Assembly: GCA_003598975.1 (NCBI GenBank)
Contig: QZIJ01000003.1
Coordinates: forward strand, 1 to 61,981
Direction: 5' to 3'
DNA: 61,981 nt
Source: Anaerolineaceae bacterium
GTDB taxonomy: Bacteria; Chloroflexota; Anaerolineae; Anaerolineales; Villigracilaceae
Both the position numbers and the translations under genes were made by a program. A model generated the notes under the pieces. The model was not told the DNA's origin. It made no database searches and worked only from the letters and a program-made list of their open reading frames with translations. This document shows positions 30,351 through 56,354 of this stretch, one piece after another (position 1 is the stretch's first letter; each line of letters starts with the position of its first letter).

Positions 30351-31972
30351 GCGGACCTCCAAACCCATTCCCCTCCCACCATCGTGGCAGATGACTGCAT
30401 CGCAAGCAATTCCTCTGCGGGACAAGTGAACGGGTCTTTTTCCAGAACGATGAGATCGGCGAGACAGCCCGGGGCCAATCGGCCCAGACGGGATTCGGTG
30501 CCCGCCGCGTACGCCGCTCCTATTGTATACGCTTCGACAGCCTCGCGCGCGCTCAATTTTTCCTCGGGGACCCACCCCGCAGACTCCGCCGACTCGTCCG
30601 CGCGTCGACGCGTGACCGCGGCATACAGACCGAGGAACGGGTTCGGCGATTCTACGGGCGCATCCGACCCGAAGGCGAGACGCGCGCCGTGCGCGAGTTG
30701 AGTCCGCCAGGCATACGCGAGTCGGACGCGTTCGCCCCAGTAGCGATCCGCCATGTGCATATCCGAGGTGGCGTGGATGGGCTGCATCGAGGCGATCACG
30801 TCCAATTGCGCGAGACGCGCCGCATCGTCGGGATGTAACACCTGCACATGTTCGATGCGGTGACGATGATGTGCGAGGCCGTGTGCGCGTTCGTAGCCGC
30901 GCAACTGCTCGTACGCGTCCAGCACTTCGTGATTCGCCCTGTCGCCGATCGCGTGGACGGTCATCGCCAGTCCCACATCGGCGGCGCGGCGGGCGATCTC
31001 GAAGAGATGCTCGCCGTCCATGTTGAGGATGCCGCGGTTTTCTGGCTCGCCCAGGTACGGCTGGAACATGGCCGCCGTGCGCGGACCGAGCGCGCCATCC
31101 ACGAAGGCTTTCACGTTGCCGATACGCAGACGATGATCGCCGAAGCCACTGCGCAAACCGAGTTCGTGCGCGTGGTCGAGATCGTCCACGGGGATGTTTT
31201 TGACGACGCGCAATTTGAGTTCACCGCGCTGATGCAATTGCTGGAGAGCCATGAAGCAAATGCGGCGGTCGAAATCGTGGACGCCCGTCAGTCCCATCTT
31301 CCATAGAATCGTCTGCGCGGCACGGATGGACTCGACGACCGCGTCCACGCTCGGTTGCGGAATCTTCGCGCTGACCAAATCCATCGCGGTTTCGAGCAGG
31401 ATACCCGTCGGCTGTCCGTGCTCGTCGCGTTGGATTTCGCCATTTTCAGGATTCGGCGTGGCTGACGTGATGCCTGCCAATTTCAAGGCGGCAGTGTTCA
31501 CCCACGCGGCGTGGAGGGACTTCGCGGTGAGATAAACGGGGTGGTTGGGAGCGATGGAGTCGAGGTCACTTGCAGAAGGCCAAAGAGATTTACCGCTAAG
31601 ATCGCCATTGAAATTCTTTGCGGTCTTGGCGGTTAATTCTCCCCACTGGTTTTGATTCCAACCATGACCCATAATCCATGCATCATTTCCCACGGTCTTC
31701 ACGCGCTCCGCCACGCGGCGCAGACATTCCTCCAGCGTGGACGTTTCGCAGTCAATTTTTTGCAGGCCCAGGGCGTAATACTGCAGGTGAATGTGCGCGT
31801 CGGTGAGACCAGGCAAGACGACGCGCCCGCCGAGGTCAAATTTCTCGGCGCGGGAGTCGAGCAGTTCATCGCCGCCAACCGCGACGATCTCGCCGCGGTC
31901 AATCAACAGCGCGGAGGCTGTCTCTTGCGCGGGGTTGAGGGTGCGAATGCGGGCGTTACAGATAAGTTTCAT
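30347..31972 (-). CDS. YtcJ-like metal-dependent amidohydrolase
   Basis: A 541-residue protein of the amidohydrolase superfamily: LTDAHIHLQYYALG (metal HxH), MTVHAIGDRANHEVLDAYE, RIEHVQVL and FGSDAPVESPNPF (catalytic Asp). Family members hydrolyse N-acyl or formamide bonds; the substrate is not known. The start at 31972 is chosen because the conserved part begins MKLICNARIRTL; the 32 codons before it lie in a repeat. An in-frame palindromic element inserts ELTAKTAKNFNGDLSGK after the GHGWNQNQWG segment. It is the first gene of the chain leading to cpaF, joined by overlaps. Confidence 0.88.
   Translation of the reverse strand: MKLICNARIRTLNPAQETASALLIDRGEIVAVGGDELLDSRAEKFDLGGRVVLPGLTDAHIHLQYYALGLQKIDCETSTLEECLRRVAERVKTVGNDAWIMGHGWNQNQWGELTAKTAKNFNGDLSGKSLWPSASDLDSIAPNHPVYLTAKSLHAAWVNTAALKLAGITSATPNPENGEIQRDEHGQPTGILLETAMDLVSAKIPQPSVDAVVESIRAAQTILWKMGLTGVHDFDRRICFMALQQLHQRGELKLRVVKNIPVDDLDHAHELGLRSGFGDHRLRIGNVKAFVDGALGPRTAAMFQPYLGEPENRGILNMDGEHLFEIARRAADVGLAMTVHAIGDRANHEVLDAYEQLRGYERAHGLAHHRHRIEHVQVLHPDDAARLAQLDVIASMQPIHATSDMHMADRYWGERVRLAYAWRTQLAHGARLAFGSDAPVESPNPFLGLYAAVTRRRADESAESAGWVPEEKLSAREAVEAYTIGAAYAAGTESRLGRLAPGCLADLIVLEKDPFTCPAEELLAMQSSATMVGGEWVWRSA
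31586..31639. repeat. In-frame palindromic element inside the amidohydrolase gene
   Basis: TTTACCGCTAAGATCGCC and GGCGGTTAA form an imperfect inverted repeat that is translated as ELTAKTAKNFNGDLSGK. The peptide start ELTAKxAKN is shared with the element at 45391-45457. Confidence 0.75.
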
Positions 31973-32030
31973 GTTTAAGATTGAAAGTTGAAAATTACCG
32001 GTCGCAGAAATTGAATCTTCAACCTTCAAC

Positions 32031-32882
32031 TCACAACAATCTCTCCAACAGCGTATCCAATTCTTCATCCGAGTAATAATAGATCGTCACCGCGCCGCCC
32101 TTCTTGCCGTGCTTGAGCGCGACCTTCGTGCCGAGGCTGGCGCGCAGTTTTCGTTCGATGTCCAGCACATCTGCGGAGGCGCGCGACTTGGCCTTGGTCT
32201 TTGGTTTCTCGCCTCCCAACTTGCGGACGAGTCCCTCGGTCTGCCGCACAGAGAGATACAGTTTCAACACGGTCTGCAACGCGGCTTCCTGTGCCTTGGC
32301 AGAGGTGAGTCCCAGCAGGGCGCGCGCATGGCCTTCGGTGATCTGCCCGTCTACAAGAACCTGCTTCACCTTCGCGGAGAGTCCCAGCAGGCGCAGGGTG
32401 TTGGTCACCGTCACGCGGCTCTTGCCTACGCGCGCGGCCACCTGTTCCTGCGAAAGCCCAAAATCCTGCACGAGATGATGATACGCCTCAGCCTCCTCGA
32501 GCGGATTCAAATCCGCGCGCTGGACGTTTTCGATCAGCGCAAGTTCCAGCAATTGACGGTCACTGGCCTGCCGCACGATGACGGGGACGGTCTTCAATCC
32601 CGCGAGTTTCGCGGCCTGTAAACGACGTTCCCCCGCGATCAGGGTGAAATTCCCGCCGCGCGCCGGCGAGACGATCAACGGCTGGATGATTCCATGCTCG
32701 CGAATGGACGCGGCCAACTCCTCGAGTTCCCCCGCGTCAAACTGGACCCGCGGCTGGCGCGGGTTCCGCGCGATAGACTCCACTGAGGCTTGCTGGACGC
32801 CTCCCGCGACAGGCCGAGAATCCGAATCGCCGCCGGGGATGAGGGCGTCGAGTCCTTTACCGAGTCCAGTTCGTTGAGGCAT
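32031..32882 (-). CDS. parB: Chromosome-partitioning protein ParB
   Basis: A 283-residue ParB/Spo0J protein: N-terminal RTGLGKGLDALIPGGD, the CTP-binding motif ERRLQAAKLAGLKTVPVIV (GERR), ALIENVQRADLNPLEEAEAY and an HTH (LSQEQVAARVGKSRVTVTNT). It would load on parS sites and slide as a CTP clamp. No parS was found nearby. SD AAGGAG precedes the ATG. Confidence 0.95.
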   Translation of the reverse strand: MPQRTGLGKGLDALIPGGDSDSRPVAGGVQQASVESIARNPRQPRVQFDAGELEELAASIREHGIIQPLIVSPARGGNFTLIAGERRLQAAKLAGLKTVPVIVRQASDRQLLELALIENVQRADLNPLEEAEAYHHLVQDFGLSQEQVAARVGKSRVTVTNTLRLLGLSAKVKQVLVDGQITEGHARALLGLTSAKAQEAALQTVLKLYLSVRQTEGLVRKLGGEKPKTKAKSRASADVLDIERKLRASLGTKVALKHGKKGGAVTIYYYSDEELDTLLERLL

Positions 32883-32905
32883 GTAATGCTCCTTAATATC
32901 GTGAA

Positions 32906-32950
32906 GTGGGATGGCATCCCGCTTAGTCTGTGCGGACTACCAGTCCGCAC
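32906..32950. repeat. Two hairpins between parA and parB
   Basis: GTGGGATGGCATCCCGC at 32906-32922 and GTGCGGACTACCAGTCCGCAC without its last base at 32930-32949 are both near-perfect palindromes. Similar hairpins are at 59984-60029. Confidence 0.7.
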
Positions 32951-32956
32951 CACATA

Positions 32957-33733
32957 TTAAATCTTGACTCCATCACCCTTCAACACTTCGCGGGCAAGGG
33001 CTTCGTACGCCTTCGCGCCCGTGGACGAGGGCGCGTAGGCCGAGATGGGCAATCCATACGAGGGCGCTTCCGCAAGACGGATACTGCGCGGGATGACAGC
33101 ATGAAAAGCCTGTTTGGGAAAATGCTTATTGACTTCGTTCACCACGTCTGCGGAGAGGTTGGCGCGGGGATCGAACATCGTCAGCACCACGCCGCGCACT
33201 TTCAGGTCAGGATAAAGAGCCGTGCGGACGCGGTGGATCGTCTGCGTGAGTTGGCCGAGTCCCTCGAGGGCCAGGTACTCGCATTGGACGGGAATCACCA
33301 CCCCGTCGCGCGCTGCAACGAGTCCGTTCACGGTCAGGAGTCCGAGCGAGGGCGGACAGTCGATCAGGATGTAATCGTAGCGGCCGTCCAATTTTTCGAG
33401 CGCGAGTTTGAGGCGCATCTCGCGCGCCAACTCGTTGACCAGTTCCACTTCCGCGCCCGCCAGCGCCGGTGATGACGGCAGGACGGACATCTTGAGCCGT
33501 TCGTTGTGAAGCGGAAGCGAATCGGACGGAAGGAGATCGAGCAGGACTTCGTAGGTGCCGCCCGCGACGGTGGTTTTGTCCACGCCGAGGGAGGAGGTGG
33601 CGTTGGCCTGCGGGTCGAGGTCCACGATGAGGACGCGCTGGCCGAGTTGCGCCATGTACGCGCCGAGGTTGATGGCAGTGGTGGTTTTGCCCACACCGCC
33701 TTTTTGGTTGACAAAGGTGTAGATGCGAGTCAT
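32957..33733 (-). CDS. parA: Chromosome-partitioning ATPase ParA (Soj)
   Basis: A 258-residue protein: deviant Walker A NQKGGVGKTTTAINLGAYMA, VLIVDLDPQANATSSLG, DYILIDCPPSLGLLTVNGL and the C-terminal PRSIRLAEAPSYGLPI. It forms ATP-dependent patterns with ParB for chromosome segregation. The pair lies directly upstream of the pilus-signalling operon rather than beside gidA/gidB genes. Confidence 0.95.
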   Translation of the reverse strand: MTRIYTFVNQKGGVGKTTTAINLGAYMAQLGQRVLIVDLDPQANATSSLGVDKTTVAGGTYEVLLDLLPSDSLPLHNERLKMSVLPSSPALAGAEVELVNELAREMRLKLALEKLDGRYDYILIDCPPSLGLLTVNGLVAARDGVVIPVQCEYLALEGLGQLTQTIHRVRTALYPDLKVRGVVLTMFDPRANLSADVVNEVNKHFPKQAFHAVIPRSIRLAEAPSYGLPISAYAPSSTGAKAYEALAREVLKGDGVKI

Positions 33734-33816
33734 TTCAATTTTTGATTTCCGATTGATGATTTATGATTGGAGATTGGTTATTGATGCATGGTGATAAAGG
33801 AAAAAATATTTTAATC

Positions 33817-34401
33817 TTAATTGTCGGCGTAATCTTCGAAATTTTGTGGCGTTTTCCATTCTTTTATTTTCTTGTACGCATCATCGACAAATAAATATAC
33901 AATTGAAGCTAAGATAACATAAATAATGCCCTGGATTGGGAAGGCGACATAAGAAAACGCGTCCATGTCTCCAATTGGATGTGCCCAATAATAGATATCG
34001 CCATTCTTATCAAAACCATAAATAAGAGCAACAGATTGAGGACCGAAACTTTGACAAACAGAAACAGATTGCACCAGCCAGTTTGTGGATGGGACACGCC
34101 TACCACAACCGATTGAATTGAAAATGTTATCATCATTATCTGGAGCATCTTCGTGCTTTTGCCAGCAATCCTTGTCACATTCCATTGGGGTAAAAGGGGT
34201 TGTAGTGTTCGATGGGTAATGATACACGCTTCCTGCTGTTGTCTTTATCCATACTCCTTCATTAATCGCAACAATTGATTGGGGTTTTTCAGGACTATCA
34301 ACAATTCTTTTCCACGAAATAAAGAAACCTTGCACATATATATGAGCAACTATCAGTCCGCCGAGTATTCCTACACCTAAAAAAAATAAGAACTTTTTCA
34401 T
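33817..34401 (-). CDS. AT-rich unknown membrane protein
   Basis: A 194-residue protein with an N-terminal helix (FLFFLGVGILGGLIVAHIYV) and a C-terminal helix (IQGIIYVILASIVYLFV); the middle (residues 25-160) has several Cys and Trp and is probably outside the cell. No family recognised. It is clearly AT-rich beside GC-rich neighbours. The start at 34401 fits the signal helix and a TAAAAT box seven bases upstream. Confidence 0.7.
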   Translation of the reverse strand: MKKFLFFLGVGILGGLIVAHIYVQGFFISWKRIVDSPEKPQSIVAINEGVWIKTTAGSVYHYPSNTTTPFTPMECDKDCWQKHEDAPDNDDNIFNSIGCGRRVPSTNWLVQSVSVCQSFGPQSVALIYGFDKNGDIYYWAHPIGDMDAFSYVAFPIQGIIYVILASIVYLFVDDAYKKIKEWKTPQNFEDYADN

Positions 34402-34408
34402 AAGAATG

Positions 34409-34414
34409 ATTTTA
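34409..34414 (-). promoter_or_regulatory. -10 box (TAAAAT) seven bases before an ATG (leaderless type)
   Basis: On the minus strand TAAAAT ends seven bases before the ATG at 34401. Confidence 0.5.
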
Positions 34415-34470
34415 GAAGCCAAGGTTCTGCGACAATGCCAAACTACATCCACATTCCCTTTCGCCAATAA

Positions 34471-35319: not shown

Positions 35320-35325
35320 GATGGA

Positions 35326-35331
35326 ATTATA
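35326..35331 (-). promoter_or_regulatory. -10 box of the PfkB kinase gene (leaderless type)
   Basis: TATAAT on the minus strand ends six bases before the ATG at 35319. Confidence 0.7.
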
Positions 35332-35417
35332 CCTGAGGTCGGATTGCGGGCTTCCAGTCCGCCCGGGGCACTCCGCAGTTTTCGGATAGTTTTTTGTTCA
35401 ACCCCTTTTTAATGGGA

Positions 35418-37974: not shown

Positions 37975-37981
37975 CTTTTGT

Positions 37982-40901: not shown

Positions 40902-40905
40902 AGTT
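40859..40905. repeat. AAAGATGAAAGA short tandem repeat
   Basis: Near-tandem units of GAAAGATGAAAGATGAAAGA at 40864-40895 encode the N-terminus of the Wzz-like protein. Confidence 0.6.
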
Positions 40906-40976
40906 TGATAGTTTGGTAGTTACGAAGTCCGACTGCGTGTTGCGTAATTATAAGCGACTCAACAGTGAACGCACTG

Positions 40977-41085
40977 CCCTGAGCGGAGGGTGTTCTTCCC
41001 GAAGTCGAAGGGCAAATCCTCAGGAAACAATTGTTGCTTTGGTTACCCATCCTTCGACTTCACTTCGTTCCGCTCAGGACGGCGG
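40977..41085. repeat. Inverted pair of CCTGAGCGGA...GTCGAAGG repeats
   Basis: CCCTGAGCGGAGGGTG...GAAGTCGAAGGGC at 40978-41012 and its inverted relative CATCCTTCGACTTC...CCGCTCAGGAC at 41048-41080 flank a short centre. This is the intergenic form of the family found in frame at 43802-43858, 55341-55390 and 56001-56055. Confidence 0.8.
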
Positions 41086-41086
41086 T

Positions 41087-42792: not shown

Positions 42793-42890
42793 GAAAAATC
42801 TGTACACAGATTTCACGGATTTGACGGATGCTCACGGATTTCTTTTAAAAAAATCTGTGCAAATCTCTCTTGTCCGTGTAATCCGTGTAC
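42793..42890. repeat. ATCCGTG-rich palindromic repeat, second copy
   Basis: CAGATTTCACGGATTTGACG and ATCCGTGTAC units in inverted order fill the gap before the second sulfotransferase. The related copy is at 6329-6420. Confidence 0.75.
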
Positions 42891-42897
42891 CAAAGAA

Positions 42898-44355
42898 TTA
42901 CGGACTTTCCTGCGACGCGGAGATGGTGTCCACGCCGTAGACGATGGCCGCGCAATAGTTGATCCAATGACCTGGGCGCGGGCCGAGGTCATTGACGTTG
43001 GCGATGCCTGGCAGTTTCCAGGTGACGATGTTCTCCTCGCCAGAGGCGGCCAGTTCGCGAATGGACGCGTCGCGCGCGTCCCACTGGGCGGCGCGGGACT
43101 GGTATTCGGGAATCAACTTGTAATTGTTGCGAATCGTCCACAGCGGGTAGAGCGCGAGAACGAACAACGCGAGGGGAACAAGAGTCGCCGTCCAGCGCGG
43201 GAGGGGGGTACGCGCAGCCAATAGTCCGAGCAACCCGCCCAACGTCAGGAGGGACGCGGCGAGGAGGACATGCGCGGGGAAGCGGACGCGGTCCACGGGA
43301 AAGGATTGTCCGTACGCGCTGGGGGCAAACGCGGCGACGATCAACAGGTAGGTCAGAATCGGAATCAAAATGAATCCCAGCCAGGCGCGGCGAGACAGGG
43401 AGAAATCGTTCGATTTGGAATAAAGATAGGCGAGCGCCGCGCCCGAAGCAAACGTGAAGCCAAGTGGAATTTTGAGCAGGCGCGCGGCTTCGGTGAGGAA
43501 TTGCACCGCATAGGTGAAGGAGCGCAGGATTACATCCAGCATGGACGGCGTGGCTGTGCCATCGAGTCGGATGGCGTTGGCAGGCGTGATGAACATGCCG
43601 ATCATCGCGAGTAGTGCGCCCACGAGCGTGGCAGTGATGAGTACGAGCGCGGCGCGGCGAGTGGGAGTTTTGTTCCAGAGAAAATTGACAACCAGCGCCA
43701 GGCCAAGAATGGAAATGTGCAACGCGCCCGCAGTCTCGGAGAGTCCGCCCGCGAAGAACGCGCCGAAGAAGAGGGTGGTGATGGTTGCCAATAACCCGTA
43801 GTCCAGAGCGGAGGGTCGAGACGTTCCGTCGAGATCCGTAGTCGAAGGACGGTTTACGGAGATTCGCGCTCTTCGAAAAATCCCCGCGAAGAGGAAGGAG
43901 TAGATGACGAGCGGCAGGAAATACGTCATCAGCCCAGGCCGCCATTGCACGGACTGAAACAGGTTGGGCGCGGTGTAATAAGAAACCAGCGCGACGATTT
44001 CGGCTAGCAGGATGCCCGTCCAAAGATCCCAGCGGATTTTGAAGAGACGCGCCGATTCGTACAGCAACCACGTCAACCCCGCGAGCCAAAGCAGGAGAGA
44101 CCCCACCGCGAGTATGGCGACGCCGCGCGGGCCAAACAGGTCGGTGAACCACGCCGCTATTTCGTTAGAGAATCGATTCGACGTGTACCAATACTTGATA
44201 AGGCTGGCCGTCAGCGGATCGTAGCCGATCAGGCGCGCCGAAATGCAGTAGTCATCGCCGATGGGACGGATGAACGCGGCGATATACGCGTAGATGGAAA
44301 GCGCTGCGGCGGATGTGAGGGCGAAGAGTTTGGTGAGGAGGGAGAAGAGTTTCAA
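42898..44355 (-). CDS. DUF6056-like polytopic membrane protein
   Basis: A 485-residue protein with about 11-12 helices. The start (FIRPIGDDYCISARL) with an acidic DDY pair after helix 1 and WYTSNRFSNEIAAWF resembles DUF6056 and GT-C proteins, where the acidic pair is catalytic. It is likely a polyprenyl-phosphate-sugar-dependent glycosyltransferase, but this is not certain. An in-frame repeat adds RPSTTDLDGTSRPSALD in a loop between helices. Confidence 0.68.
   Translation of the reverse strand: MKLFSLLTKLFALTSAAALSIYAYIAAFIRPIGDDYCISARLIGYDPLTASLIKYWYTSNRFSNEIAAWFTDLFGPRGVAILAVGSLLLWLAGLTWLLYESARLFKIRWDLWTGILLAEIVALVSYYTAPNLFQSVQWRPGLMTYFLPLVIYSFLFAGIFRRARISVNRPSTTDLDGTSRPSALDYGLLATITTLFFGAFFAGGLSETAGALHISILGLALVVNFLWNKTPTRRAALVLITATLVGALLAMIGMFITPANAIRLDGTATPSMLDVILRSFTYAVQFLTEAARLLKIPLGFTFASGAALAYLYSKSNDFSLSRRAWLGFILIPILTYLLIVAAFAPSAYGQSFPVDRVRFPAHVLLAASLLTLGGLLGLLAARTPLPRWTATLVPLALFVLALYPLWTIRNNYKLIPEYQSRAAQWDARDASIRELAASGEENIVTWKLPGIANVNDLGPRPGHWINYCAAIVYGVDTISASQESP
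43802..43858. repeat. In-frame GAGCGGAGGG...GTCGAAGG element in the DUF6056-like gene
   Basis: AGAGCGGAGGGTCGAGACG and GTAGTCGAAGGACGG match the family ends at 56010-56053. It is translated from the minus strand as RPSTTDLDGTSRPSALD. Confidence 0.8.
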
Positions 44356-44414: not shown

Positions 44415-45995
44415 TTAACGAGAAGTTTGAAGATCGTAGATGATGTAGCCATCACCCTCCGCAAAAATTGCGAATTCAGAAAGCCGCGTTTGCAAGTCGG
44501 GCTGGCGTTTGAGGTCGGCGAGGTCGGTGACGAGGAAAATATCTTTGTTTTTGGTGAGGCGGTCGAAATATTTTTCGAAGGTTTGTCCGCCGCCGCGCAG
44601 AGCATGATACTCGATGTCGGACGAATCGGGCCAGTTGGCCGCGCCTGTCCAACCCCAGTAAGCCAGCGGCAGGCCGTAGTCCTGTGTCAGCGCGACGACG
44701 CGGTGGCCGCGCACCGTCTCACCGATTTGATTCCAGAACGCGGCCTGGGGACGATAGTCCGCGGACTTCAAGGCGACGCGGGAGGTCCAGAGCGCGGCGA
44801 GCAGGCAGAAGGTCAGGATGGAGGCGGCGAGGACTCGCGTCACGCGTGACCGTTCAGCGGCCTCCGTCATGCGGACGAGGATCGCGTCCGCGAGCGGAGT
44901 CAACGTCAGCGCGGCGATGGGGATGAGCGGTAGGCTGTAGTAATCGTGAGTCGAAATGTGGTAGTCGAAGAAAATTGCAAAGGCGAGGTAGGCGCCCCAC
45001 AGTCCGAGCAGGAACGAGCGCGTGGGTTTAGAGTCTACGAGGAGGAGGCCGAGGAGCGCAAGCGCGAAGGTGAAGAGACCGAGAACGTTGTCGAGCATCC
45101 CTGCCCAGCCGAGATAAAAGTTGGGCAAAAGGAAAAGTTCGGGCATGAAGCGTCCGCCGAATTGCTGACCGAGGAAGCCGCGTGAGAGTCCGTAGACCAC
45201 CCAGCCGAGTCCAGGAAGGATGCCGAGCGCGGCCATCGTCCACACTTGCTTGTTGCGGAGGAGGTCGCGTAGAGAAGCGCGTCCGAGCATCGCGCCCAGC
45301 GCACCGCCGATGACGAAGAAAGCCGCGTTGAGTTTGACGAAGATGGCAACGCCGCCGAGGAGACTCGCAAGAATCACCAAAAACCAATTTGAACCGCGAA
45401 GGTCGCCAAGATTTAATTCTTTCTTCGCGTTCTTTGCGTGCTTCGCGGTTAATTCTGAATTGTGTTCCATTCCAATATTTTTCGCCCAGCGATTGACTGC
45501 CCACCAGAAACCGAGGATGAGCGCGACCATCAACGGGTCGGGTTGGAAGGAGCGGCTGGCGATGACGGCGTAGTGCAGGAGGAGGTAGAAGGCGATTGTG
45601 AAAAGTGCGGCGTCTCTCGAGAAGATGTCGCGGGCGAGGAGATAGATAAAAATCCCACCGATCAGCCAGAAAAGGCTGGAATAAATTCGCGCCACCCAAA
45701 GTTGTTCGCCTGTGAATTTCCACGTGAAGACGGTGAGACGCTCGATGATTTCGGGTTCGATTGTGGCGCGCAGTTTTCCCTGCTGGATGGCGAACTCGCG
45801 TTGCTCCGCGGGCGCGTTGGGAAGCGTCTCGTAGTACATGCCGCGCGCTTTGAGCGCTGAGAAGAGTTGACGTGTGGGATGGAAGTCCAGCGGCAGGTCG
45901 GTAAGATCGTAGAGACGAATGCCGATGGCCGCGACGAAGATGACGATGAGGATCAGCGTGTGAAATCGGCCAAAGAGGGAGCGAGAATTGTCCAT
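44415..45995 (-). CDS. GT39/ArnT-like membrane glycosyltransferase, first
   Basis: A 526-residue GT-C protein with about 12 helices. The first loop has GIRLYDLTDLPLDFHPTRQL, with the acidic residues typical of the catalytic loop, and the YSSLFWLIGGIFIYLLARDI region matches PMT/ArnT proteins. It would use a lipid-linked sugar donor outside the membrane. An in-frame palindrome adds ELTAKHAKNAKKELNLG. It is a paralogue of the gene at 47549-49063 (shared LDFxPxRQL). Confidence 0.83.
   Translation of the reverse strand: MDNSRSLFGRFHTLILIVIFVAAIGIRLYDLTDLPLDFHPTRQLFSALKARGMYYETLPNAPAEQREFAIQQGKLRATIEPEIIERLTVFTWKFTGEQLWVARIYSSLFWLIGGIFIYLLARDIFSRDAALFTIAFYLLLHYAVIASRSFQPDPLMVALILGFWWAVNRWAKNIGMEHNSELTAKHAKNAKKELNLGDLRGSNWFLVILASLLGGVAIFVKLNAAFFVIGGALGAMLGRASLRDLLRNKQVWTMAALGILPGLGWVVYGLSRGFLGQQFGGRFMPELFLLPNFYLGWAGMLDNVLGLFTFALALLGLLLVDSKPTRSFLLGLWGAYLAFAIFFDYHISTHDYYSLPLIPIAALTLTPLADAILVRMTEAAERSRVTRVLAASILTFCLLAALWTSRVALKSADYRPQAAFWNQIGETVRGHRVVALTQDYGLPLAYWGWTGAANWPDSSDIEYHALRGGGQTFEKYFDRLTKNKDIFLVTDLADLKRQPDLQTRLSEFAIFAEGDGYIIYDLQTSR
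45391..45457. repeat. In-frame palindromic element in the first GT39-like gene
   Basis: AACCGCGAAGGTCGCCAAG is inverted as CTTCGCGGTTAATTC at the other end. The minus strand reads ELTAKHAKNAKKELNLGDL in the protein. The intergenic relative is at 12016-12083. Confidence 0.82.
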
Positions 45996-47548: not shown

Positions 47549-49063
47549 TTATGGGTGTAAATCATACAGCATAAACCCGTTCCCCTCTGCCGCGATGGGA
47601 TAACCGTCGAGAATCTTTTTTAGGTCGGGTTGTTTGTCGAGTTGGTTGAAGGCCGTCACCAAAAAATATTCCTTGCCCACAGTCAACTCGTCGAATCGCG
47701 CGGCGAGGTCACGCTCGGAATTGCGCGTCGCGGCCAGGTCGGTGCTGAGCGGCCACAGCGTCACCTTGCGCCAGCCCCACAGCATCAGCCGATAGCCGTA
47801 ATCCTGCGTCAGCCCGATCGTGTCCGCGTCGGCGGGGATGGATTGACCAACGGACTCCCAAAACGCGGGTTCGTGACGAAAATCTTCGGAGACCAAAACG
47901 GACCGCGCCACCCATGACTGGTATCCGACTAACGCGAGAATTACTGCGATGAAAGCGGCGCGTCGCGCGAGACTTTGAGCGGACGCGGCCTCGAGGATCG
48001 GATTCAACACGGACGCGAGTCCCAGCGCAAGGATGGGGATGAGTTGAATATGGTAGTAACTGTGTGTGTACATCTGGAACGGGAGCGTCAGCCCGTAGGC
48101 CTCGTAACCGATCCACAAGCCGATGAGCAGCCAGCGCAGGCGCGGCGGCGCGAGGAACACGCCCGCAACGCTCGCGAAGATGACCGTCAGCCCGAAGAGA
48201 CTGCCGATGAACCCCAGCCAGTCCGCGTAGAAGTGAATGCTGGTGATGAGTTTGAAGAGCGCCACCGACCAGCTGAAAAAGTATTCGGTGGAGCGGTTCG
48301 AGTTGAGGAAAACGTAAAATATCAGCGCAGGGAGAACCATCAGCGCGGCCATTGCCCAGACCTGTGTCGATTTCCAAAAATCTTTTCGGAGGGTGAATAA
48401 TACCAGCGCAATTGCCGCCACACCGACAAAGAATGCGATAACGATTTTGACGAGGGCGGCGAAGCCGAGGAAAATCCCCGCGAGGAGGGCGAAGCGCCAG
48501 GAAATCGGGAATCGGGAATTGGCAGATTGGGAATCGTGAATTGTGGATTCTGACCAGCGATAGAGAAAATAAATGCCGATGACGAAAGCGGAGGTCATCA
48601 GCGGGTCGGGTTGGAAGGAGCGGCTGGCTTGAACGGAGAACGGCAGGACGAGGTAGAACGTCAACGCGGCGAGGGCAGACCACTCCGAGGTGGCGCGGCG
48701 GATGAGATCATAGAGGGCAAGTCCCGCAAGGAGCCAGAAGAGAGTCCCCCAGAGACGCGGGGCGGCGTAGTTCTCTCCGCCAGTGAAGCGATAGGTGACC
48801 GCGACGAGCGATTCGATGATGGGCGGCTCGTACTGTCCCACCGAGCGGCGGAAGGATTCGGTGAGGGCGAGAGTCTTCGCGTCCGTGTCGGGGAGGAGGC
48901 GGAAGTAGATGTCGCGGGCAACGAGAGAGTTTCGGAGTTGGCGCGAAGGTTGGAAGTCGAGCGGAGGGTCCGTCAGGTCAAGGAGTCGGAGGAGTCCGCC
49001 GAGGGCGAGGAGGAGGATCAAGGCGGCGCGGACGGCGAGGGGTCGGGGAGGAAGCAAGGGCAT
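47549..49063 (-). CDS. GT39/ArnT-like membrane glycosyltransferase, second
   Basis: A 504-residue GT-C protein with 11-12 helices; after helix 1 comes LLDLTDPPLDFQPSRQLRNS, then VTYRFTGGENYAAPRLWG. It is similar along its length to the gene at 44.4 kb. An in-frame repeat adds STIHDSQSANSRFPIS between helices. The likely role is adding a lipid-linked sugar to an exported glycan or protein. Confidence 0.83.
   Translation of the reverse strand: MPLLPPRPLAVRAALILLLALGGLLRLLDLTDPPLDFQPSRQLRNSLVARDIYFRLLPDTDAKTLALTESFRRSVGQYEPPIIESLVAVTYRFTGGENYAAPRLWGTLFWLLAGLALYDLIRRATSEWSALAALTFYLVLPFSVQASRSFQPDPLMTSAFVIGIYFLYRWSESTIHDSQSANSRFPISWRFALLAGIFLGFAALVKIVIAFFVGVAAIALVLFTLRKDFWKSTQVWAMAALMVLPALIFYVFLNSNRSTEYFFSWSVALFKLITSIHFYADWLGFIGSLFGLTVIFASVAGVFLAPPRLRWLLIGLWIGYEAYGLTLPFQMYTHSYYHIQLIPILALGLASVLNPILEAASAQSLARRAAFIAVILALVGYQSWVARSVLVSEDFRHEPAFWESVGQSIPADADTIGLTQDYGYRLMLWGWRKVTLWPLSTDLAATRNSERDLAARFDELTVGKEYFLVTAFNQLDKQPDLKKILDGYPIAAEGNGFMLYDLHP
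48500..48555. repeat. In-frame GGGAATTGG-type element in the second GT39-like gene
   Basis: AATCGGGAATCGGGAATTGG followed by GATTGGGAATCGTGAATTG is translated on the minus strand as STIHDSQSANSRFPIS. Similar A/T/G-rich stretches are seen between genes, for example at 33735-33785. Confidence 0.75.
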
Positions 49064-49159: not shown

Positions 49160-49981
49160 CTAGAAGAGGGAATTGTAGTCCACTTTGGGGAAGATAGTGA
49201 GTTTGCCGCCGACGGTGGCGTCGAGGACTTCGCGGCCTGCGGATTCGTAGGCTTGGCGGGCGAAGCGGTAGCCGATCTCGGAGGTGTCGAGGTCGGGGAG
49301 TTGCCAGCGGAAGCCTTTGCCGAAGTAGGCCGCGGAGAAGTGGTTGGGATCGTCGCCGTCAGAGACGACGGTCTTGTTGGCGTCGCCTTTGCTGGCGAAG
49401 TTGTGATCCACGCCGACGAGAATAACCTGCTCGAAGCCCATGTGGAAGGCGAGTTGGAGGGCGACGTTGGTGACGGTGGCGCCTTCCCAGACGCGGCCGC
49501 GAACGTCGCGGGTAAAGCGAGGGCCCGTGTAGGTGGTGTAAAGGAATGTTGGTAGTTGGTGGTTGGTGGTTGGCGGCAGGTTCTTAAAGTGGACATGTGA
49601 GCGCCAGGCGAGGAATTTGGGGAGGTCGAGCGCCGCCATTTCCTCCGCGCACTGTTCGATGACGAGGTCGTTGATGGAGACGAGGCAGGAGGTGGTGAAG
49701 CCGAGTTCGGGGAACATCAGGTAGATGCGGTTCATCCCGAAGGTGAATTCGTTTTTGAGCTTGGTGAGGTCAGTCTGCTTGAGTGACGGTCCGTTGCCGA
49801 TGATGAAGGCGCGCTGGCCTTTGTGCTTGTCCTTGAGCGCGGCAAGCCGAAGAATGCTCTCGCGCCGCCACGGATGCAAATACGCGGACGGGAGTTGCGG
49901 CAGGCGGCGAATCCCGTCGTAGGTGTTTTTGACGGTTTGGAGGAGGGAGGCGGGGAGGAGGGTGGTGAGGGTTTGTTTCAT
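49160..49981 (-). CDS. DUF115 / MptE-like protein (Maf-type glycosyltransferase relative)
   Basis: A 273-residue protein. KGQRAFIIGNGPSLKQTDL, FTFGMNRIYLMFPELGFTTS and ILVGVDHNFASKGDANKTV match the DUF115 domain, found in MptE-like pterin enzymes and in Maf proteins that transfer nonulosonic acids. The glycan context and the CMP-sugar synthetase at 56.4 kb favour a transferase role. The start at 49981 is chosen; the 35 codons upstream come from a repeat. An in-frame repeat adds PPTTNHQLPTF in mid-protein. Confidence 0.75.
   Translation of the reverse strand: MKQTLTTLLPASLLQTVKNTYDGIRRLPQLPSAYLHPWRRESILRLAALKDKHKGQRAFIIGNGPSLKQTDLTKLKNEFTFGMNRIYLMFPELGFTTSCLVSINDLVIEQCAEEMAALDLPKFLAWRSHVHFKNLPPTTNHQLPTFLYTTYTGPRFTRDVRGRVWEGATVTNVALQLAFHMGFEQVILVGVDHNFASKGDANKTVVSDGDDPNHFSAAYFGKGFRWQLPDLDTSEIGYRFARQAYESAGREVLDATVGGKLTIFPKVDYNSLF
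49544..49585. repeat. In-frame TTGGTGG-type element in the DUF115 gene
   Basis: A tandem GGTAGTTGGTGGTTGGTGGT stretch, read on the minus strand as PPTTNHQLPTF, interrupts a conserved segment between HVHFKN and LYTTYTG. Confidence 0.72.
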
Positions 49982-50526: not shown

Positions 50527-50574
50527 TAATTCGTCTCCATAATTACGATACAAGAACGGAGTAACTCTCTGTTA

Positions 50575-51336: not shown

Positions 51337-51356
51337 AATTCTCTCCGTGATATAAC

Positions 51357-51403
51357 GAAAACGTAAAACGTAAGGGCAATTTACGTTTTACGCATTGCGT
51401 TTT
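51357..51403. repeat. ACGTAAAACGTAA-type palindromic repeat
   Basis: AAAACGTAAAACGTAA (51358-51373) is inverted as TTACGTTTTACG (51381-51392) and extended by GCGTTTTA. It ends inside the stop codon of the downstream dehydrogenase gene. Confidence 0.82.
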
Positions 51404-52361
51404 ACTTGTCGCTCAATCCATTTTCCACAAATCCCAACCCCTCCAGCAAATTCCGTATCGTATTCCAATGCACCCGCTCCCATGCGGCGGGACTGGAGTT
51501 GGCGTTGTGCGGGGCGAGCATGACGTTGTCCATTTTGAGGAGCGGACTGTCGTGCGGCAGAGGCTCGAACTCGAACACATCCAGCGCGGCGCCACCGATC
51601 TGACCTGATTGGAGCGCGGCGACCAGTGCGGATTCGTCCACGATGGGGCCGCGGGCGGTGTTGATGACGACAGCAGAGGGCTTCATCTTGGCGAGCGTCT
51701 TTGCGTTGACAAGGTGATGGCTGGTGGGATTCAAATCGCAGTTGAGGGAGATGAAGTCAGATGCAGAGAGTAGAGAGTCGAGAGTGGTCATCTCGATTCC
51801 AGATTCAGTGATGAAGACATGGTCAATTTCGATGATGTCTGTTCCCAGAACTTTCATGCCGAAGGCTTTGGCGCGACGAGTGACTGCCTTGCCAATGTTG
51901 CCAACGCCGATCACGCCGAGGGTACACTCGCTGAGAGTCTTGCCTGGAATTTTTTCCCATTCGCCGCGCTTCATGGCCGCGTCCATCCACGGGCCGCGGC
52001 GGACGAAGGCCAGCATGTAGCCGAGGACGGTGTCCGCGACGGGGGTGGTAAACGCGTTCGGCGTGCGACCCACCCGAACGTTCAGGCGGGACGCGGCCGC
52101 GCTGTCAATCGAGTCGATACCCGTCCCCCACTTCGAGATGACTTTCAGCCGCGGCGCGCAGGCTTCGAGCACGCGCGCAGTGTAACGGTCATCGCCACAG
52201 ATCGCGCCGTCGAATTGACCGGCGTACTTCAGCAGGTCGGCTTCCTCCATGCGCTCCTGCACATCGGGAACGATCAGGTCAATCCCATATTTATCGAAGG
52301 CGGATTTGAAACGATCCAAAAATGGGATCATGTAGGGGGCGGTCATCAAAACGGTGGGCAT
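51402..52361 (-). CDS. D-2-hydroxyacid dehydrogenase (phosphoglycerate dehydrogenase-like)
   Basis: A 319-residue protein: GVIGVGNIGKAVTRRAKAFG with GTDIIE (NAD site), INTARGPIVDESALVAAL (Arg), a Glu-containing DVFEFEPLPHDSPLL and a late His in LAPHNANSSPA. It interconverts 2-oxo and D-2-hydroxy acids. The substrate is unknown. It precedes the SDR gene on the same strand by 65 bases. Confidence 0.9.
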   Translation of the reverse strand: MPTVLMTAPYMIPFLDRFKSAFDKYGIDLIVPDVQERMEEADLLKYAGQFDGAICGDDRYTARVLEACAPRLKVISKWGTGIDSIDSAAASRLNVRVGRTPNAFTTPVADTVLGYMLAFVRRGPWMDAAMKRGEWEKIPGKTLSECTLGVIGVGNIGKAVTRRAKAFGMKVLGTDIIEIDHVFITESGIEMTTLDSLLSASDFISLNCDLNPTSHHLVNAKTLAKMKPSAVVINTARGPIVDESALVAALQSGQIGGAALDVFEFEPLPHDSPLLKMDNVMLAPHNANSSPAAWERVHWNTIRNLLEGLGFVENGLSDK

Positions 52362-52380
52362 GGTTTCTCCAGGTGATAAA

Positions 52381-52412
52381 CTAGGTTTCTGGCAAGGACC
52401 TGGTTTATTGAT
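52381..52412. repeat. AGGTTTCTGG...CCTGGTTT repeat
   Basis: CTAGGTTTCTGGCA and GACCTGGTTTATTG lie between the dehydrogenase and sulfatase-fold genes; a degenerate member of the family at 60061-60095. Confidence 0.5.
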
Positions 52413-52420
52413 GTTTGTGC

Positions 52421-54244
52421 TCAGCGCAAGGAACTGACATCATATCCGTTTTTTTCGAGATATGCCAAGATTTCGGCGCGGATCTCCTCCTGCGGCGGCA
52501 GAATTTGTGGTTCGCAGGGTGCGGTATGGCCGATCAAATTGTTGACAGTGAATTTGTTTTCCTGCACATTCAGTTCGTAGTATTTTTGGCAGATGATGAA
52601 CACCACGGATTTTATTTGAAAAAATGGCGGTTTGATCTTCTTCGGGGAACCCGCAATGATGCTGATGATCTCGCGTGTTGGGGACACTTCGGAATCAAGG
52701 AAGGTCGATCCGCTCATCCAGGCGGGTTTTTCGAGGCCGAGATAATCCAGCAGAGTGACTGGCACGTCAATCACCTGCAAGTTGTTAGTACGCGACCCCG
52801 CATGGGCTTGCTCAGGAAAACGGATGATGATGGGGATGCGTTTGTTAACCGCGTACATAAAACCATGATCGGTATACACCACCAGGATGGTGTTCTCAAG
52901 TTGGCCTGTCTCTTCGAGGTGCTGGTAGACGCGTTCCACGCTTCCGTCAAAACTGAGGATGGCATCCTGGTATCGTTCTCTGTCCCACTCTTCGTCCGTT
53001 TCGCTTGTGGAAAACACGTGACGACTGGATGAGAAATGCGGTCCGTGTGTGTCCATGAAATGGGCAAAGATGAAGAGCGGGTGGTTGGCCTGATCAAGCA
53101 AGTCCTCGATCTGCTGGACGCGCTGTTCGTCAGTCATGCGCGCAGTGGGATCATCGACTTCCTTGATCGCGTTATGCATATCGCGGATAAAGAATATGTG
53201 GAGCAGGCGTTCTTCGGCACGATCCAACACGGTGATGACAAATTGAGTGGAAGGTGAATTGCCCAGCATTTTTTGGATCACATTGGCCGCAGGTTGGTCC
53301 GGGGAACGGCTATTGACGATATCGAAACCGTCCAGCAGGTTTTGCTTCCCCGCGTCAACATACTCGTGGACGCCGATCTCGACCGTCTGGTATCCGTGGG
53401 CTTTGAGAATGGCTGGCAGGTGCTCGAACGAGTCATCGCCCGTGAGAGTATCGGGATAGCGGAAGACCTGCACATCCATGGGATATTTCCCCGTGAGCAT
53501 GGCTGTGGTGGAGCCAGTGGTGCTTGAGGAATTGACAAACGCGTTTTCCGCAATCAGCGACTCGGATGCCAATTTCTCGAGGAAGGGGGTGGTCTCTTTG
53601 GTGTATCCATACACGGAAAGGTAGGCCGCGCTGAGTCCGTCACCACCGATGATGATGATGTTGGGATATTTTTGTGTAGTCGTTGCGCTTTCGCCATACG
53701 TGGAGATCTTTTGGCTGGTGGGAAGCGTTACAGTCAGGATGGCGATGATCGAAACGGCGAGCAGGCCAAACGTCGGGACAGAAGCGGGCCTCCTTCGCTT
53801 GAAGCCGCGAACATGAATCCTGTACGTCATCCAAGCCAGGAAGAGCAGGAAGCCGACCAAGTATGGTATTCGCCAATTACCAGTGGCTGTGGCAATGCCA
53901 AACTTAAAAACCGTGTAGGTGAAGTTGTCGAAAAGAATGAGGGCGTTTACAGAGGCGATGAAGGCGGGCACAAGGCAAGCGAGATAGGCGAGTCGCCGCT
54001 GGGCCGTATCTCTGGTGAACAGGGATGGCACGAGAAGCGAGAAAAGAACGATCAATGCCGCCAGTGCAATCGTCCCACCTGTGACGAAAAGAATGCGTAC
54101 TTTCTCGAACAGGCTGAGAAGGGAAAGCGCGGACGGCTTGGTAACGAAGAATATCCACTCCATCAAGGCATAGAAAAACGCGTTGAGGATGGTCGCAATG
54201 ATAAGTGCAGACAGATTGAGTTGAGGCTGTTTGGCGGAAGACAT
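52421..54244 (-). CDS. Membrane protein with a sulfatase/phosphoglycol-transferase-type domain
   Basis: A 607-residue protein: five helices (residues 1-175), then an alkaline-phosphatase-superfamily domain: NIIIIGGDGLSAAYLSVYGY (metal Asp), nucleophile region NSSSTTGSTTAMLTGKYP, FAHFMDTHGPHF and VVYTDHG. There is no C/SxPxR sulfatase signature, so the nucleophile is probably Thr or Ser as in phosphoethanolamine or phosphoglycerol transferases (LtaS-like). The ATG at 54244 lies seven bases after a TAAAAT box; a GTG at 54250 is possible. Confidence 0.82.
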   Translation of the reverse strand: MSSAKQPQLNLSALIIATILNAFFYALMEWIFFVTKPSALSLLSLFEKVRILFVTGGTIALAALIVLFSLLVPSLFTRDTAQRRLAYLACLVPAFIASVNALILFDNFTYTVFKFGIATATGNWRIPYLVGFLLFLAWMTYRIHVRGFKRRRPASVPTFGLLAVSIIAILTVTLPTSQKISTYGESATTTQKYPNIIIIGGDGLSAAYLSVYGYTKETTPFLEKLASESLIAENAFVNSSSTTGSTTAMLTGKYPMDVQVFRYPDTLTGDDSFEHLPAILKAHGYQTVEIGVHEYVDAGKQNLLDGFDIVNSRSPDQPAANVIQKMLGNSPSTQFVITVLDRAEERLLHIFFIRDMHNAIKEVDDPTARMTDEQRVQQIEDLLDQANHPLFIFAHFMDTHGPHFSSSRHVFSTSETDEEWDRERYQDAILSFDGSVERVYQHLEETGQLENTILVVYTDHGFMYAVNKRIPIIIRFPEQAHAGSRTNNLQVIDVPVTLLDYLGLEKPAWMSGSTFLDSEVSPTREIISIIAGSPKKIKPPFFQIKSVVFIICQKYYELNVQENKFTVNNLIGHTAPCEPQILPPQEEIRAEILAYLEKNGYDVSSLR

Positions 54245-54251
54245 GAGCACG

Positions 54252-54257
54252 ATTTTA
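54252..54257 (-). promoter_or_regulatory. -10 box (TAAAAT) seven bases before an ATG (leaderless type)
   Basis: On the minus strand TAAAAT ends seven bases before the ATG at 54244. Confidence 0.5.
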
Positions 54258-54296
54258 CAACACTCTGCTGTGGAAGGCGCGCACGCAGTTTTATCC

Positions 54297-56354
54297 CTAC
54301 TTGCAATACCATTCCAGCGCAGATGATTCCATTTCAGGCGTCAACATTCCCGCTTCCGCCATATTTGTCAAAATCGCGCAGGCCTGGTTTCCCAGAAACG
54401 CGTCTGCGCGGAGGATGGACGAGAGCTTCTTCAAATCTTTTTCGCGTTCGAGAACCGCGTAGGCTTGCATGAACGGCATCCACTCCACGCTGTCCGCGGG
54501 ATAAAAGCCGAGTCGTAGCGCCTCATCACCCAACGTGGCGACGCGTTCCCAATCTTCCATCTGACGTGCCAGGGATGCCTGCTGATAGTACCAGCACCAG
54601 CCGTGTTCGGGTTCGGGACCGAAGGCGGCCACGAGCGGAACGGGCGACTGCCCCTCTGTGACCACGTTCCCAATCTTCGATTCCGCCGCGACCAGCATGA
54701 TACGCGGATCGTCGCTCACGGACAGTTCGGGCTGGGAACCGTCCAAAACGCGAACGCAACTGCCGACATCCGCCTGAGCAATAATGAGCATATTGCCATA
54801 GTCCATGACAACGTGTGTGTTGCGGCGGTCGGGTTCGTCCACGCCTCTGCCTGTCAGGATGCGCGTCAGGTTTTCGGGAGTCAGCAACACCGCGCCGATG
54901 GGCGCCTCGATGGGTTGCGCGGTCTGTGGTTCGGGATGATAGATCAAATTGGCCGCGCCCCACAGGAAATAATCTTCTTGAATCGAGGCAGGGAATTGCG
55001 CGGCGAGCGTCGTCCCGTCCTTCATCTGCGGGACGCGCCACGAAACCTGCCACCAGAAATTTTTAACCGCGTCCGCTTCTTTAGCAATGTTGACCGCGTT
55101 GGCATAATGCGTGAGAACGGCGAGTCCCGTGAGCAGGCCGACCAATCCCCAGCGCAGACGCGCCGACGAAAGGTAACCGAGCGTCGCCACCACCGCCATC
55201 GCCGCGCCCGCCGCGCTTGCCAGCGTGTAGCGCGACAGCGAGAAAAATTCCACGTGACGGTTGACGAGGATGACGGGGATCAGTCCCGCGGCCGCGCTGA
55301 CGAGTCCGACCCAGAACATTTCGGCGCGCCAATCATCATGCGCTTCGACTGCAGCTTCCGACGCTTCGCGTCTCCAGCCTCCGCTCAGTGCGATGACCAC
55401 ACCCGCGGCAACCGCGAAGGCCAGCGCGAAGCCGATCCACGTTTCGGAGAGACGCAGGTTGAACGCCAGATGATACAGCGGCACGCCCCAGGCGAGGAAG
55501 ATCACGTTGATTGTGTCTTGAACAAATCGCGCCAGCCACCAAAATCCCGTTTGCAGCGGGGACGAAAACAGCGCGCCGAATTGGAGTCCCACGTCCGTGG
55601 CGTTGCGCTCGCTGGTGAAGAAGAAGAGCCGCCAGATGAGGAAGGTGAGGGGGCCGAGGATAAAGGGGATGGAGGAGATGATAGTGCGAGAAACGTAATG
55701 CGTAAAACGTAATGTGGAATTGGTATCACGGCGAACAACAATGAAGATGACAAGCAGGCGGAGAACTTCGAGGCCGAGATAATATTCGATCAGGCCGAGA
55801 TAGATCCACGCGAGGAAGAAGGATAGGATAAGATAAGTGCCTTTGAGCGCGAGTTTTGGCGTTTTCAGCGCGGCGACGGTGAGGGCGAGGGAGGTCATCG
55901 CCGCGAAGAGACTGACGATCTGCGATTGGTAGTCAATGGGGTTGGGTTGGGAGAGGAAGCCAGGATAAATGAGGAAGAGGAGGGTGGTGAGGAGATTCGC
56001 TGTCCTGAGCGGAGGGTTGAGACGCGAAGCGTTGAGACCCGCAGTCGAAGGGCGAACGGGCCACACCTGATTCAACAGCCACAACAAACTAACCGCGCTG
56101 AGGAAGCGGAACACATACGCGCTGACGTGATACGGAAGCGGGTCGTCGCCGAACAACTCATAGGCGGGACCCAACACATAGGCCCGCATGGGACGGTCGC
56201 GTTCGTAGGCGAGGGCAAAGTAGTCCGCGCCCTGGACGTGCGCGCCGTACATCAAGTACCAATCATCGTTGGCGTAGGTGAAGCGTCCGATGAAGGGGAG
56301 ATACGTCAGCGCGGAGGCGATGAGTAGGAGGAGATACGGAAGAAAGCGCTTCAT
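54297..56354 (-). CDS. GT-C-like polytopic membrane protein with three repeat-coded insertions
   Basis: A 685-residue protein: about ten helices (residues 1-430) and a soluble C-terminal part (430-685). TYANDDWYLMYGAHVQGADY after helix 1 has the acidic loop expected of GT-C glycosyltransferases. No precise family was recognised. Three in-frame repeat elements add RPSTAGLNASRLNPPLR, STLRFTHYVSRT and GGWRREASEAAVEA, all in loops between hydrophobic stretches. Its start overlaps the stop of the CMP-sugar synthetase gene by four bases. Confidence 0.72.
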   Translation of the reverse strand: MKRFLPYLLLLIASALTYLPFIGRFTYANDDWYLMYGAHVQGADYFALAYERDRPMRAYVLGPAYELFGDDPLPYHVSAYVFRFLSAVSLLWLLNQVWPVRPSTAGLNASRLNPPLRTANLLTTLLFLIYPGFLSQPNPIDYQSQIVSLFAAMTSLALTVAALKTPKLALKGTYLILSFFLAWIYLGLIEYYLGLEVLRLLVIFIVVRRDTNSTLRFTHYVSRTIISSIPFILGPLTFLIWRLFFFTSERNATDVGLQFGALFSSPLQTGFWWLARFVQDTINVIFLAWGVPLYHLAFNLRLSETWIGFALAFAVAAGVVIALSGGWRREASEAAVEAHDDWRAEMFWVGLVSAAAGLIPVILVNRHVEFFSLSRYTLASAAGAAMAVVATLGYLSSARLRWGLVGLLTGLAVLTHYANAVNIAKEADAVKNFWWQVSWRVPQMKDGTTLAAQFPASIQEDYFLWGAANLIYHPEPQTAQPIEAPIGAVLLTPENLTRILTGRGVDEPDRRNTHVVMDYGNMLIIAQADVGSCVRVLDGSQPELSVSDDPRIMLVAAESKIGNVVTEGQSPVPLVAAFGPEPEHGWCWYYQQASLARQMEDWERVATLGDEALRLGFYPADSVEWMPFMQAYAVLEREKDLKKLSSILRADAFLGNQACAILTNMAEAGMLTPEMESSALEWYCK
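55341..55390. repeat. In-frame GAGCGGAGG...GTCGAAG element, inverted orientation
   Basis: On the minus strand this reads CTGAGCGGAGGCTGGAGACG...GCAGTCGAAG and codes GGWRREASEAAVEA. It matches the element at 56001-56055 at about 40 of 50 positions, but lies in the opposite direction relative to the gene. Confidence 0.85.
55686..55718. repeat. In-frame ACGTAAAACGTAA element
   Basis: AAACGTAATGCGTAAAACGT followed by AATG is translated on the minus strand as STLRFTHYVSRT. The intergenic relatives are at 11510-11569 and 51357-51403. Confidence 0.82.
56001..56055. repeat. In-frame CCTGAGCGGAGGG...GTCGAAGGG element
   Basis: TCCTGAGCGGAGGGTTGAGA and CGCAGTCGAAGGGCG bound a centre with GCGAAGCG. The minus strand codes RPSTAGLNASRLNPPLR. 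Confidence 0.85.

Follow-up and report, generated by a model that had tools for sequence, protein, structure and literature searches.

How does short repetitive DNA come to be read as protein inside genes? The question is raised by a stretch of 61,981 nt (hereafter the window; contig QZIJ01000003.1 of assembly GCA_003598975.1) from an Anaerolineaceae bacterium of the phylum Chloroflexota, in which eight short repeat elements lie in frame within six protein-coding genes. Repeat DNA has apparently been turned again and again into new protein segments in this bacterium and its relatives. To our knowledge, the case for routine gain of protein from selfish or slipping repeats has so far been based on intracellular bacteria and on scattered examples of repetitive extragenic palindromic (REP) sequences. 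Single loops that carry several unrelated fillings across sister species make the rate, tolerance and fate of such additions measurable; for annotation, peptides of this kind are a possible source of error in structure prediction and in gene calling by homology.

In-frame repeat elements in six genes

Six open genes harbor the eight segments, all on the minus strand, and no stop interrupts their translation:

31586–31639, minus strand: element a, hairpin family A, ACCGCNAAG units, peptide LTAKTAKNFNGDLSG; host amidohydrolase, 30347–31972
43802–43858, minus strand: element b, family B (CCTTCGACT...CCTCCGCTC), peptide NRPSTTDLDGTSRPSALDY; host DUF6056 protein, 42898–44355
45391–45457, minus strand: element c, hairpin family A, peptide ELTAKHAKNAKKELNLGDLRG; host PMT_2 protein, 44415–45995
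48500–48555, minus strand: element d, period-7 array of the ATTCCCG/GGGAATC type, peptide IHDSQSANSRFPI; host PMT protein, 47549–49063
49544–49585, minus strand: element e, period-7 array CCAACCA, peptide PTTNHQLP; host MptE-like protein, 49160–49981
55341–55390, minus strand: element f3, family B in the opposite orientation, peptide SGGWRREASEAAVEA; host 685-aa protein, 54297–56354
55686–55718, minus strand: element f2, ACGTTTTACGCATTACGTTT, 7-nt units by inspection, peptide RFTHYVSR; same 685-aa protein
56001–56055, minus strand: element f1, family B, peptide RPSTAGLNASRLNPPLRT; same 685-aa protein

The in-frame survival of repeats inside genes, proposed in a sequence-only reading of this DNA, is thus confirmed, together with the coordinates that it gave; its count of at least seven elements should read eight, the number that it listed. 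Its claim of several unrelated repeat families also stands. Family A (31.6 and 45.4 kb) consists of ACCGCNAAG-type units with an inverted end, family B (43.8, 55.3 and 56.0 kb) follows a CTTCGACT...CTCCGCTCAG pattern, and the other three elements are made of 7-nt tandem units (heptamers): d and e belong to a class of arrays that is present in several dispersed copies, and f2 (55.7 kb) has, by inspection, ACGTTTT-like units. When folding was compared with that of shuffled sequences, the family A elements gave z scores of -2.8 (31.6 kb) and -3.7 (45.4 kb) and the other six -0.3 to +0.8. Only two of the eight are therefore palindromic, family B folding no better than its shuffles, and the description of the set as palindromic, or as a single palindromic family, had to be abandoned. 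No Rfam family reached its gathering score in window positions 30000–57500, and a literal search of the window for CTTCGACTNCGCTCAG with 3 mismatches did no better than chance (5 found, 2.9 expected). Five of the six hosts had been read as glycan-related; Pfam assigns two to PMT-type families and one to an MptE-like family, the others being a DUF6056 protein, an amidohydrolase and a protein with no family, which bears out the glycan reading only in part.

Different fillings at the same site in sister species

Eight members of the genus were searched, the window's genome (G000) and seven others (G001 to G007). One open reading frame of an "uncultured Anaerolineae" record shares 77% identity with a G007 stretch, which points to that lineage. 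The variable block of the amidohydrolase contains no additional residues in G003 and G005, and the solved homologues 3igh and 3icj have an 18-residue gap at the position of element a; when a repeat segment of glycyl-tRNA synthetase beta (GlyS) is aligned with its best solved homologue, the latter likewise shows a gap, of six residues. Alignment with homologues, the check suggested at the outset, came out in favor of insertion, the peptide tested being absent from solved homologues. Across the eight genus members, site a carries family A in three (G000, G006 and G007), the CCCTCTCCC hairpin in either orientation in three, and nothing in two. The CTCACCCC/CCCTCTCCC hairpin is found in G004 and G002, with two copies in the latter, and on the opposite strand in G001. 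An AlphaFold model of the amidohydrolase from eight sequences was poor (mean pLDDT, the predicted local distance difference test, of 49) and was not used.

Similar turnover is seen at other sites. Site b carries family B in G000 and G002 and in none of the five other genus members aligned. At site f1, family B occupies G000, the CGTCATTGCGAG family G002 and G004 (followed in G002 by CCCAATTA units), and CCAATTA arrays G006 and G007, where they come after an apparent decayed CGTCATTGCGAG copy, so a CGTCATTGCGAG copy may be ancestral at this site; the paralogues L017–L019 have five residues there. Site f2 has similar units in G002 and other arrays in other sisters, and site f3 has family B in G000 and G002 and an unrelated GAATCCGAAAGT hairpin in G004, G006 and G007. 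Adjoining element e, the G007 orthologue has a TCAGTCA-type peptide. Judging by these alignments, the fillings of one loop differ between sister species.

The host of element d, a PMT-like glycosyltransferase, was followed through the family, where it was matched in 53 of the 61 genomes searched. Among the best 30 loci, which were aligned, one internal loop has at least six residues in 19 homologues and 0–2 residues in 11; an insertion of at least six residues in any other internal block is found in one of the 30. Heptamers (GGGAATC, CCAATTA) are among its fillings, as are the CGTCATTGCGAG family and, in both orientations, the CCCTCTCCC hairpin; some other fillings fit no nameable repeat family. 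In a predicted structure (mean pLDDT 90) whose best structural matches are OST and ArnT, and whose fold we take to be of the GT-C type, the insertion site is a loop between helices 152–179 and 187–205, with block means of 77 and 76 against 96–98 around it.

Copies elsewhere in the genome

Copies of each element were sought in 754 kb of G000, window included (E ≤ 0.01; 50 dinucleotide shuffles per element). Element a had four other matches, three of them intergenic, and element c had 22, some paired at one place, of which the 14 listed are mostly intergenic; shuffles averaged 0.02 matches for element c and 0–0.04 over all elements. Single further matches were intergenic for f2 and genic for d. 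Elements b and f3 (one other match each) and f1 (two) matched inside window genes, the family B matches in this search being the window's own three elements, and element e had no direct match. The claim that these repeat types also fill spacers therefore holds by direct match for the elements at 31.6, 45.4 and 55.7 kb and weakly for that at 56.0 kb (E 3e-4), whose family has a spacer relative at 40902–41086; those at 48.5 and 49.5 kb are tied to spacer repeats by class alone, as period-7 arrays with no direct spacer match. The intergenic relatives in the window are as follows:

12018–12072, minus strand: family A copy, from the copy search
40902–41086, no strand assigned: family-B-like CTTCGACT/GCTCAGGA elements, in a spacer matched by genus locus L117
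51381–51410, plus strand: ACGTTTTACG array related to element f2, from the copy search

Over the whole 3.94 Mb assembly (E ≤ 0.001; coding fraction 0.857), family A has 24 matches at 23 places, element c included, and the sequence shared between its copies and remote genomic sites reaches about 65 nt. Random placement would put about 20.6 of the 24 matches in called genes; four are there, one of them just 7 codons from the called start. Family A is depleted in genes. Family B, queried with window positions 55996–56060 (element f1), has four matches, all genic and three of them in the window, and two regular-expression matches for it look like chance. The sequence-only reading had asked for such a count of genic and intergenic copies against chance, and had expected the repeats to be common elsewhere; this is true of family A, but not of family B, with four close copies, or of element e.

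Other repeats were seen in passing: intergenic CACGGATT-type repeats at 42795–42852 and 6364–6421, mutually inverted, with ten more matches in the genome, and, in the G000 sample, a CRISPR-like repeat, GTTTCAATCCACGCTCCCAATGAAGGGAGCGAC, present in about 40 copies.

Genome-wide occurrence and host genes

In-frame repeats had been noted within one 25 kb region, but are not limited to it. With intergenic DNA of the G000 and G007 samples as query against genes, 120 matches in 47 gene segments were obtained for G000 and 115 matches in 37 segments for G007, some of these segments being ordinary gene homology; reversed intergenic DNA gave 0 matches and 1 match, respectively. Differences between the two genomes are enriched in such sequences. 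Out of 558 G000 genes, 102 had a match in the sampled stretches of G007 and 58 pairs were retained (60% identity, half covered; 22,049 aligned columns), and 8 of their 19 internal indels of at least seven residues match intergenic repeats (E ≤ 1e-3). The same was true of 38 of 1140 pieces drawn at random from these genes (p 2e-7) and of 2 of 1140 codon-shuffled inserts (p 4e-14), p values that are approximate since four of the 19 indels lie in one gene and the control draws are not independent.

An automatic scan, which also took in tandem arrays and ignored the 20 codons at either end of a gene, found 93 repeat-like segments in 66 of 835 sampled genes of at least 150 residues, part of these segments being ordinary homology or low complexity. 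It recovers just four of the eight named elements (c, d, e and f1), so true elements are missed. The hosts include GlyS, a radical SAM protein and Mfd, which in G000 (L070:3693–7148) has five detected segments; the UvrA orthologue of G007 carries a 19-residue insert. Membrane glycosyltransferases do not emerge as preferred hosts beyond the 25 kb region. Proteins with at least 6 predicted transmembrane segments make up 12 of the 66 hosts and 81 of the 835 genes (p 0.03), but the enrichment is lost at thresholds of at least 4 (12/66 against 133/835, p 0.6) and at least 8 (5/66 against 38/835, p 0.2). The bias is mostly local, and a glycosyltransferase preference was rejected as the cause.

Arrays of seven-nucleotide units

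Tandem arrays of at least 21 nt with periods of 4–13 were counted in the G000 and G007 samples, each of which was also shuffled once, by codon or by block, as a control. Within genes the most frequent period is 7, which is not divisible by three, with 30 arrays in G000 and 22 in G007, as compared with 3 and 2 of period 6 and 7 and 5 of period 9; the shuffled copies contain no period-7 array. A further 17 and 24 arrays lie between genes, and thus 52 of the 93 sampled period-7 arrays are genic, at a density per kb that is 3.4 and 4.7 times higher in spacers than in genes. Most heptamer arrays are imperfect and have 3–5 units. Since three heptamers make 21 nt, the frame is kept and a seven-residue repeat such as NYQLPIT results. 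Where one orientation is free of stops and the other is not, in-gene heptamers use the stop-free one in 27 of 33 cases.

One such step was caught inside a gene. About 124 kb of G006 and G007 align in pieces that are 96.8–99.5% alike (89% in one 6.3 kb piece), and within these pieces there are six gaps of at least 15 nt, all of 15–21 nt. Three measure 21 nt, and one of them is an in-frame array difference in Mfd (G006, L186 near 4676), where the strains are 98% alike. Reading insertion ends from the differences between the two genomes was tried and gave no precise ends.

No period-7 array was found by the same count in 150 kb of Escherichia coli K-12, or in 72 kb sampled from other families of the order and class (six genomes). 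There were 25 in 399 kb from other genera of the family, in stretches partly chosen near known matches, and eight in 24 kb from two more distant genomes, so the trait is not confined to the family. Heptamer-rich genomes exist elsewhere in the phylum: locus L374, from a genome of another family, has seven arrays in 12 kb. Of 301 phylum genomes, nine contain a 22-nt CCAATTA array, all nine among the 18 genomes of this family, and none contains the reversed pattern. In a species-wide collection the array is present in at least 120 stretches. Among the 80 matches listed, most are cyanobacterial with the exact array, and the others include Anaerolineae, other Chloroflexi, a Parabeggiatoa, Bacteroidota, Stahlbacteria, WOR-3 and Falkowbacteria; 8 of the 82 arrays in these loci sit inside open reading frames of at least 200 residues, such as those of L220, L226, L251 and L204 (Stahlbacteria, Falkowbacteria, WOR-3 and Microseira records).

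Transposases and hairpins

The eight genus genomes contain 25 Y1-transposase matches, 23 of them above the Pfam cut-off. A matching repeat lies on both sides within 250 nt in 9 of the 25 Y1 genes, as compared with 5 of 300 control genes (p 3e-8). Hairpins of the GTGACAGTCAC family lie on both sides of L125, which is one of the nine, and next to L120; AGACTTC hairpins, identified by eye, flank L127 and adjoin L121. These four loci are spread over G002, G004, G001 and G005. L127 (at about 1530–1590) and L121 (at about 1655–1700) are REP-type transposase genes that themselves contain a hairpin, which in L121 is of the adjoining family. Eight of ten such proteins match the NCBIfam model REP_Tyr_transpos, one above the cut-off, and two match IS200. 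Within ordinary genes of G000, the GTGACAGTCAC and AGACTTC families are read in frame as KTSEVSETSEV (an FAD-binding subunit) and VTVTPEVTVT (a 321-aa protein); the match at L099 in the hairpin-family search looks like chance. A single family-B-like copy (L117) is at most 250 nt away from a long Y1 gene in G000. From these neighborhoods, REP-type mobilization appears likely for the transposase-linked GTGACAGTCAC and AGACTTC families and possible for families A and B.

Explanations for the in-frame repeats

Any explanation has to accommodate the repeats and their in-frame placement, the homologues without the peptides, the unrelated fillings of one site, the depletion of family A in genes and the 21-nt step inside a gene. 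Quite probably, repeats insert or expand everywhere in the genome and selection keeps the copies that preserve the frame in tolerant loops. The genome holds many unrelated short repeats, both REP-like hairpins and 7-nt tandem arrays, which would insert or expand irrespective of genes, and a genic copy would persist only if the frame is kept, the orientation used is stop-free and the loop is dispensable. Heptamers would pass in groups of three units (21 nt, 7 residues) with all three phases read. Spare loops would be few and so repeatedly filled, often by different repeats in each species, and the fillings would become lineage-specific protein segments. Hairpins may be moved by REP-associated transposases, as suggested by gene neighborhoods within the genus for families other than the window's. 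For heptamers, slippage or template switching would be the simplest agent; heptamers have been described as the commonest longer simple repeats, with a polymerase contact that may favor slippage (PMC4679880).

Several observations weigh against this account of insertion and selective retention. Family B is rare outside genes. The fillings of b and f3 are shared with G002 by descent, family A at site a was probably inherited in the same way, and the CGTCATTGCGAG copy at f1 may also count among the shared fillings; with fillings partly inherited, the number of species does not give the number of events. That in-gene heptamers are in the stop-free orientation is for the most part a consequence of the open frame, and the elements do not significantly avoid predicted membrane segments (4 of 25, with 6.4 expected). 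No clean whole-hairpin insertion is present among the G006/G007 differences, so a target-site duplication could not be read; one of six breaks holds a CGTCATTGCGAG copy, in a 1.16 kb stretch found in G006 only (L188 4546–5706), but not as a simple insert. As for transposition, the nine flanked genes include long repeats and not hairpins alone, the AGACTTC cases (L127 and L121) were read by eye and stand outside the nine, seven of the eight REP_Tyr_transpos matches fall below the curated cut-off, just two credible in-gene copies of transposase-linked families were found, and these families differ from those of the window.

Growth of loops by local slippage of low-complexity DNA, with nothing copied from elsewhere, would account for the dominance of period-7 arrays, which include three of the window's elements, and for the 21-nt strain differences. 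As a general explanation it is nevertheless rather unlikely: family A copies share their sequence with distant parts of the genome, several species have the CCCTCTCCC and CGTCATTGCGAG hairpins at one and the same site, and the same CCAATTA array is present in other phyla among the matches listed. Phase variation, in which gain or loss of one heptamer would switch surface-glycan genes, fits the frame-shifting 7-nt unit and the envelope-type genes among the hosts, but is highly improbable given that the arrays are mostly short and imperfect, that several hosts are housekeeping genes, and that the gene d matches listed (53 of 61 genomes) have no inner stop, a frame shift being possible in G011, where the gene is in four pieces. 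A functional role of the peptides as linkers, with selection on their sequence, is equally hard to credit; the peptides are kept in proteins such as GlyS, but sequence, length and family vary among sisters at one site and many homologues are empty. An assembly or binning artefact might be suspected in a genome of 149 contigs that is 84% complete, but the same sites are filled in several sisters, including G007 (about 4 contigs), which makes this explanation extremely implausible.

A broader proposal can tentatively be made, and may well prove too broad: many conserved proteins of some lineages would contain "landing loops" that active repeats continually re-fill, with the three-heptamer module (21 nt, 7 residues) as the main currency. 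Landing loops would then be a general and still running route from non-coding repeat DNA to new protein sequence, spanning Anaerolineae, cyanobacteria and candidate phyla.

Relation to known repeat systems

Rickettsia palindromic elements (RPEs) and their Wolbachia counterparts are short repeats that occur in spacers and in frame in genes and are absent from homologues, and the likeness to RPEs first noted for the window is sustained in these respects. Presence both in spacers and within genes is clear for family A, while family B copies are genic with a looser spacer relative; the peptides correspond to gaps in homologues. A stable hairpin is found in just two of the eight elements, and the set as a whole is not classed as RPE. 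Unlike RPEs, the repeats here belong to many unrelated families, most window elements are non-palindromic, different families occupy the same site in sister species, and the lineage is probably free-living.

Short tandemly repeated repetitive (STRR) sequences of cyanobacteria are heptameric repeats, and the 7-nt unit is common to both systems. Heptamer repeats have been reported as GGGAATC, the unit of element d, in Xanthomonas and Nostoc (PMC4692102) and as TAACTGA in Beggiatoaceae (PMC4679880), and CCAATTA is found exactly in many cyanobacteria. In these two sources, such repeats are described as mostly non-coding, whereas 52 of 93 arrays are genic here; a mainly intergenic location, usual for STRR sequences and not strictly defining, is thus not seen, although density is still lower in genes. 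The open literature yielded no description of protein loops in Chloroflexota being re-occupied by heptamer arrays or mixed repeats, a weak negative with subscription papers mostly outside the search.

RPEs, intragenic REPs in hosts of the uvrA and recB type and heptamer repeats are already known. Di Nocera et al. (2013, PMC3733652) describe RPEs as repeats in spacers and in frame in genes, and GTAG/CGTC-tagged REPs, associated with REP-associated tyrosine transposases (RAYTs), in coding regions; many of these lie in genes for repair, uvrA among them, and in recB two Xanthomonas species have different REPs at roughly the same position. The present repeats resemble those intragenic REPs in lying within genes, in a uvrA host, in the different repeats found at one site and, for hairpin families other than the window's, in lying beside REP-type transposase genes in sister species. 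They differ from the tagged hairpins of that paper in that 7-nt arrays form a large class here and unrelated fillings are found in several genes.

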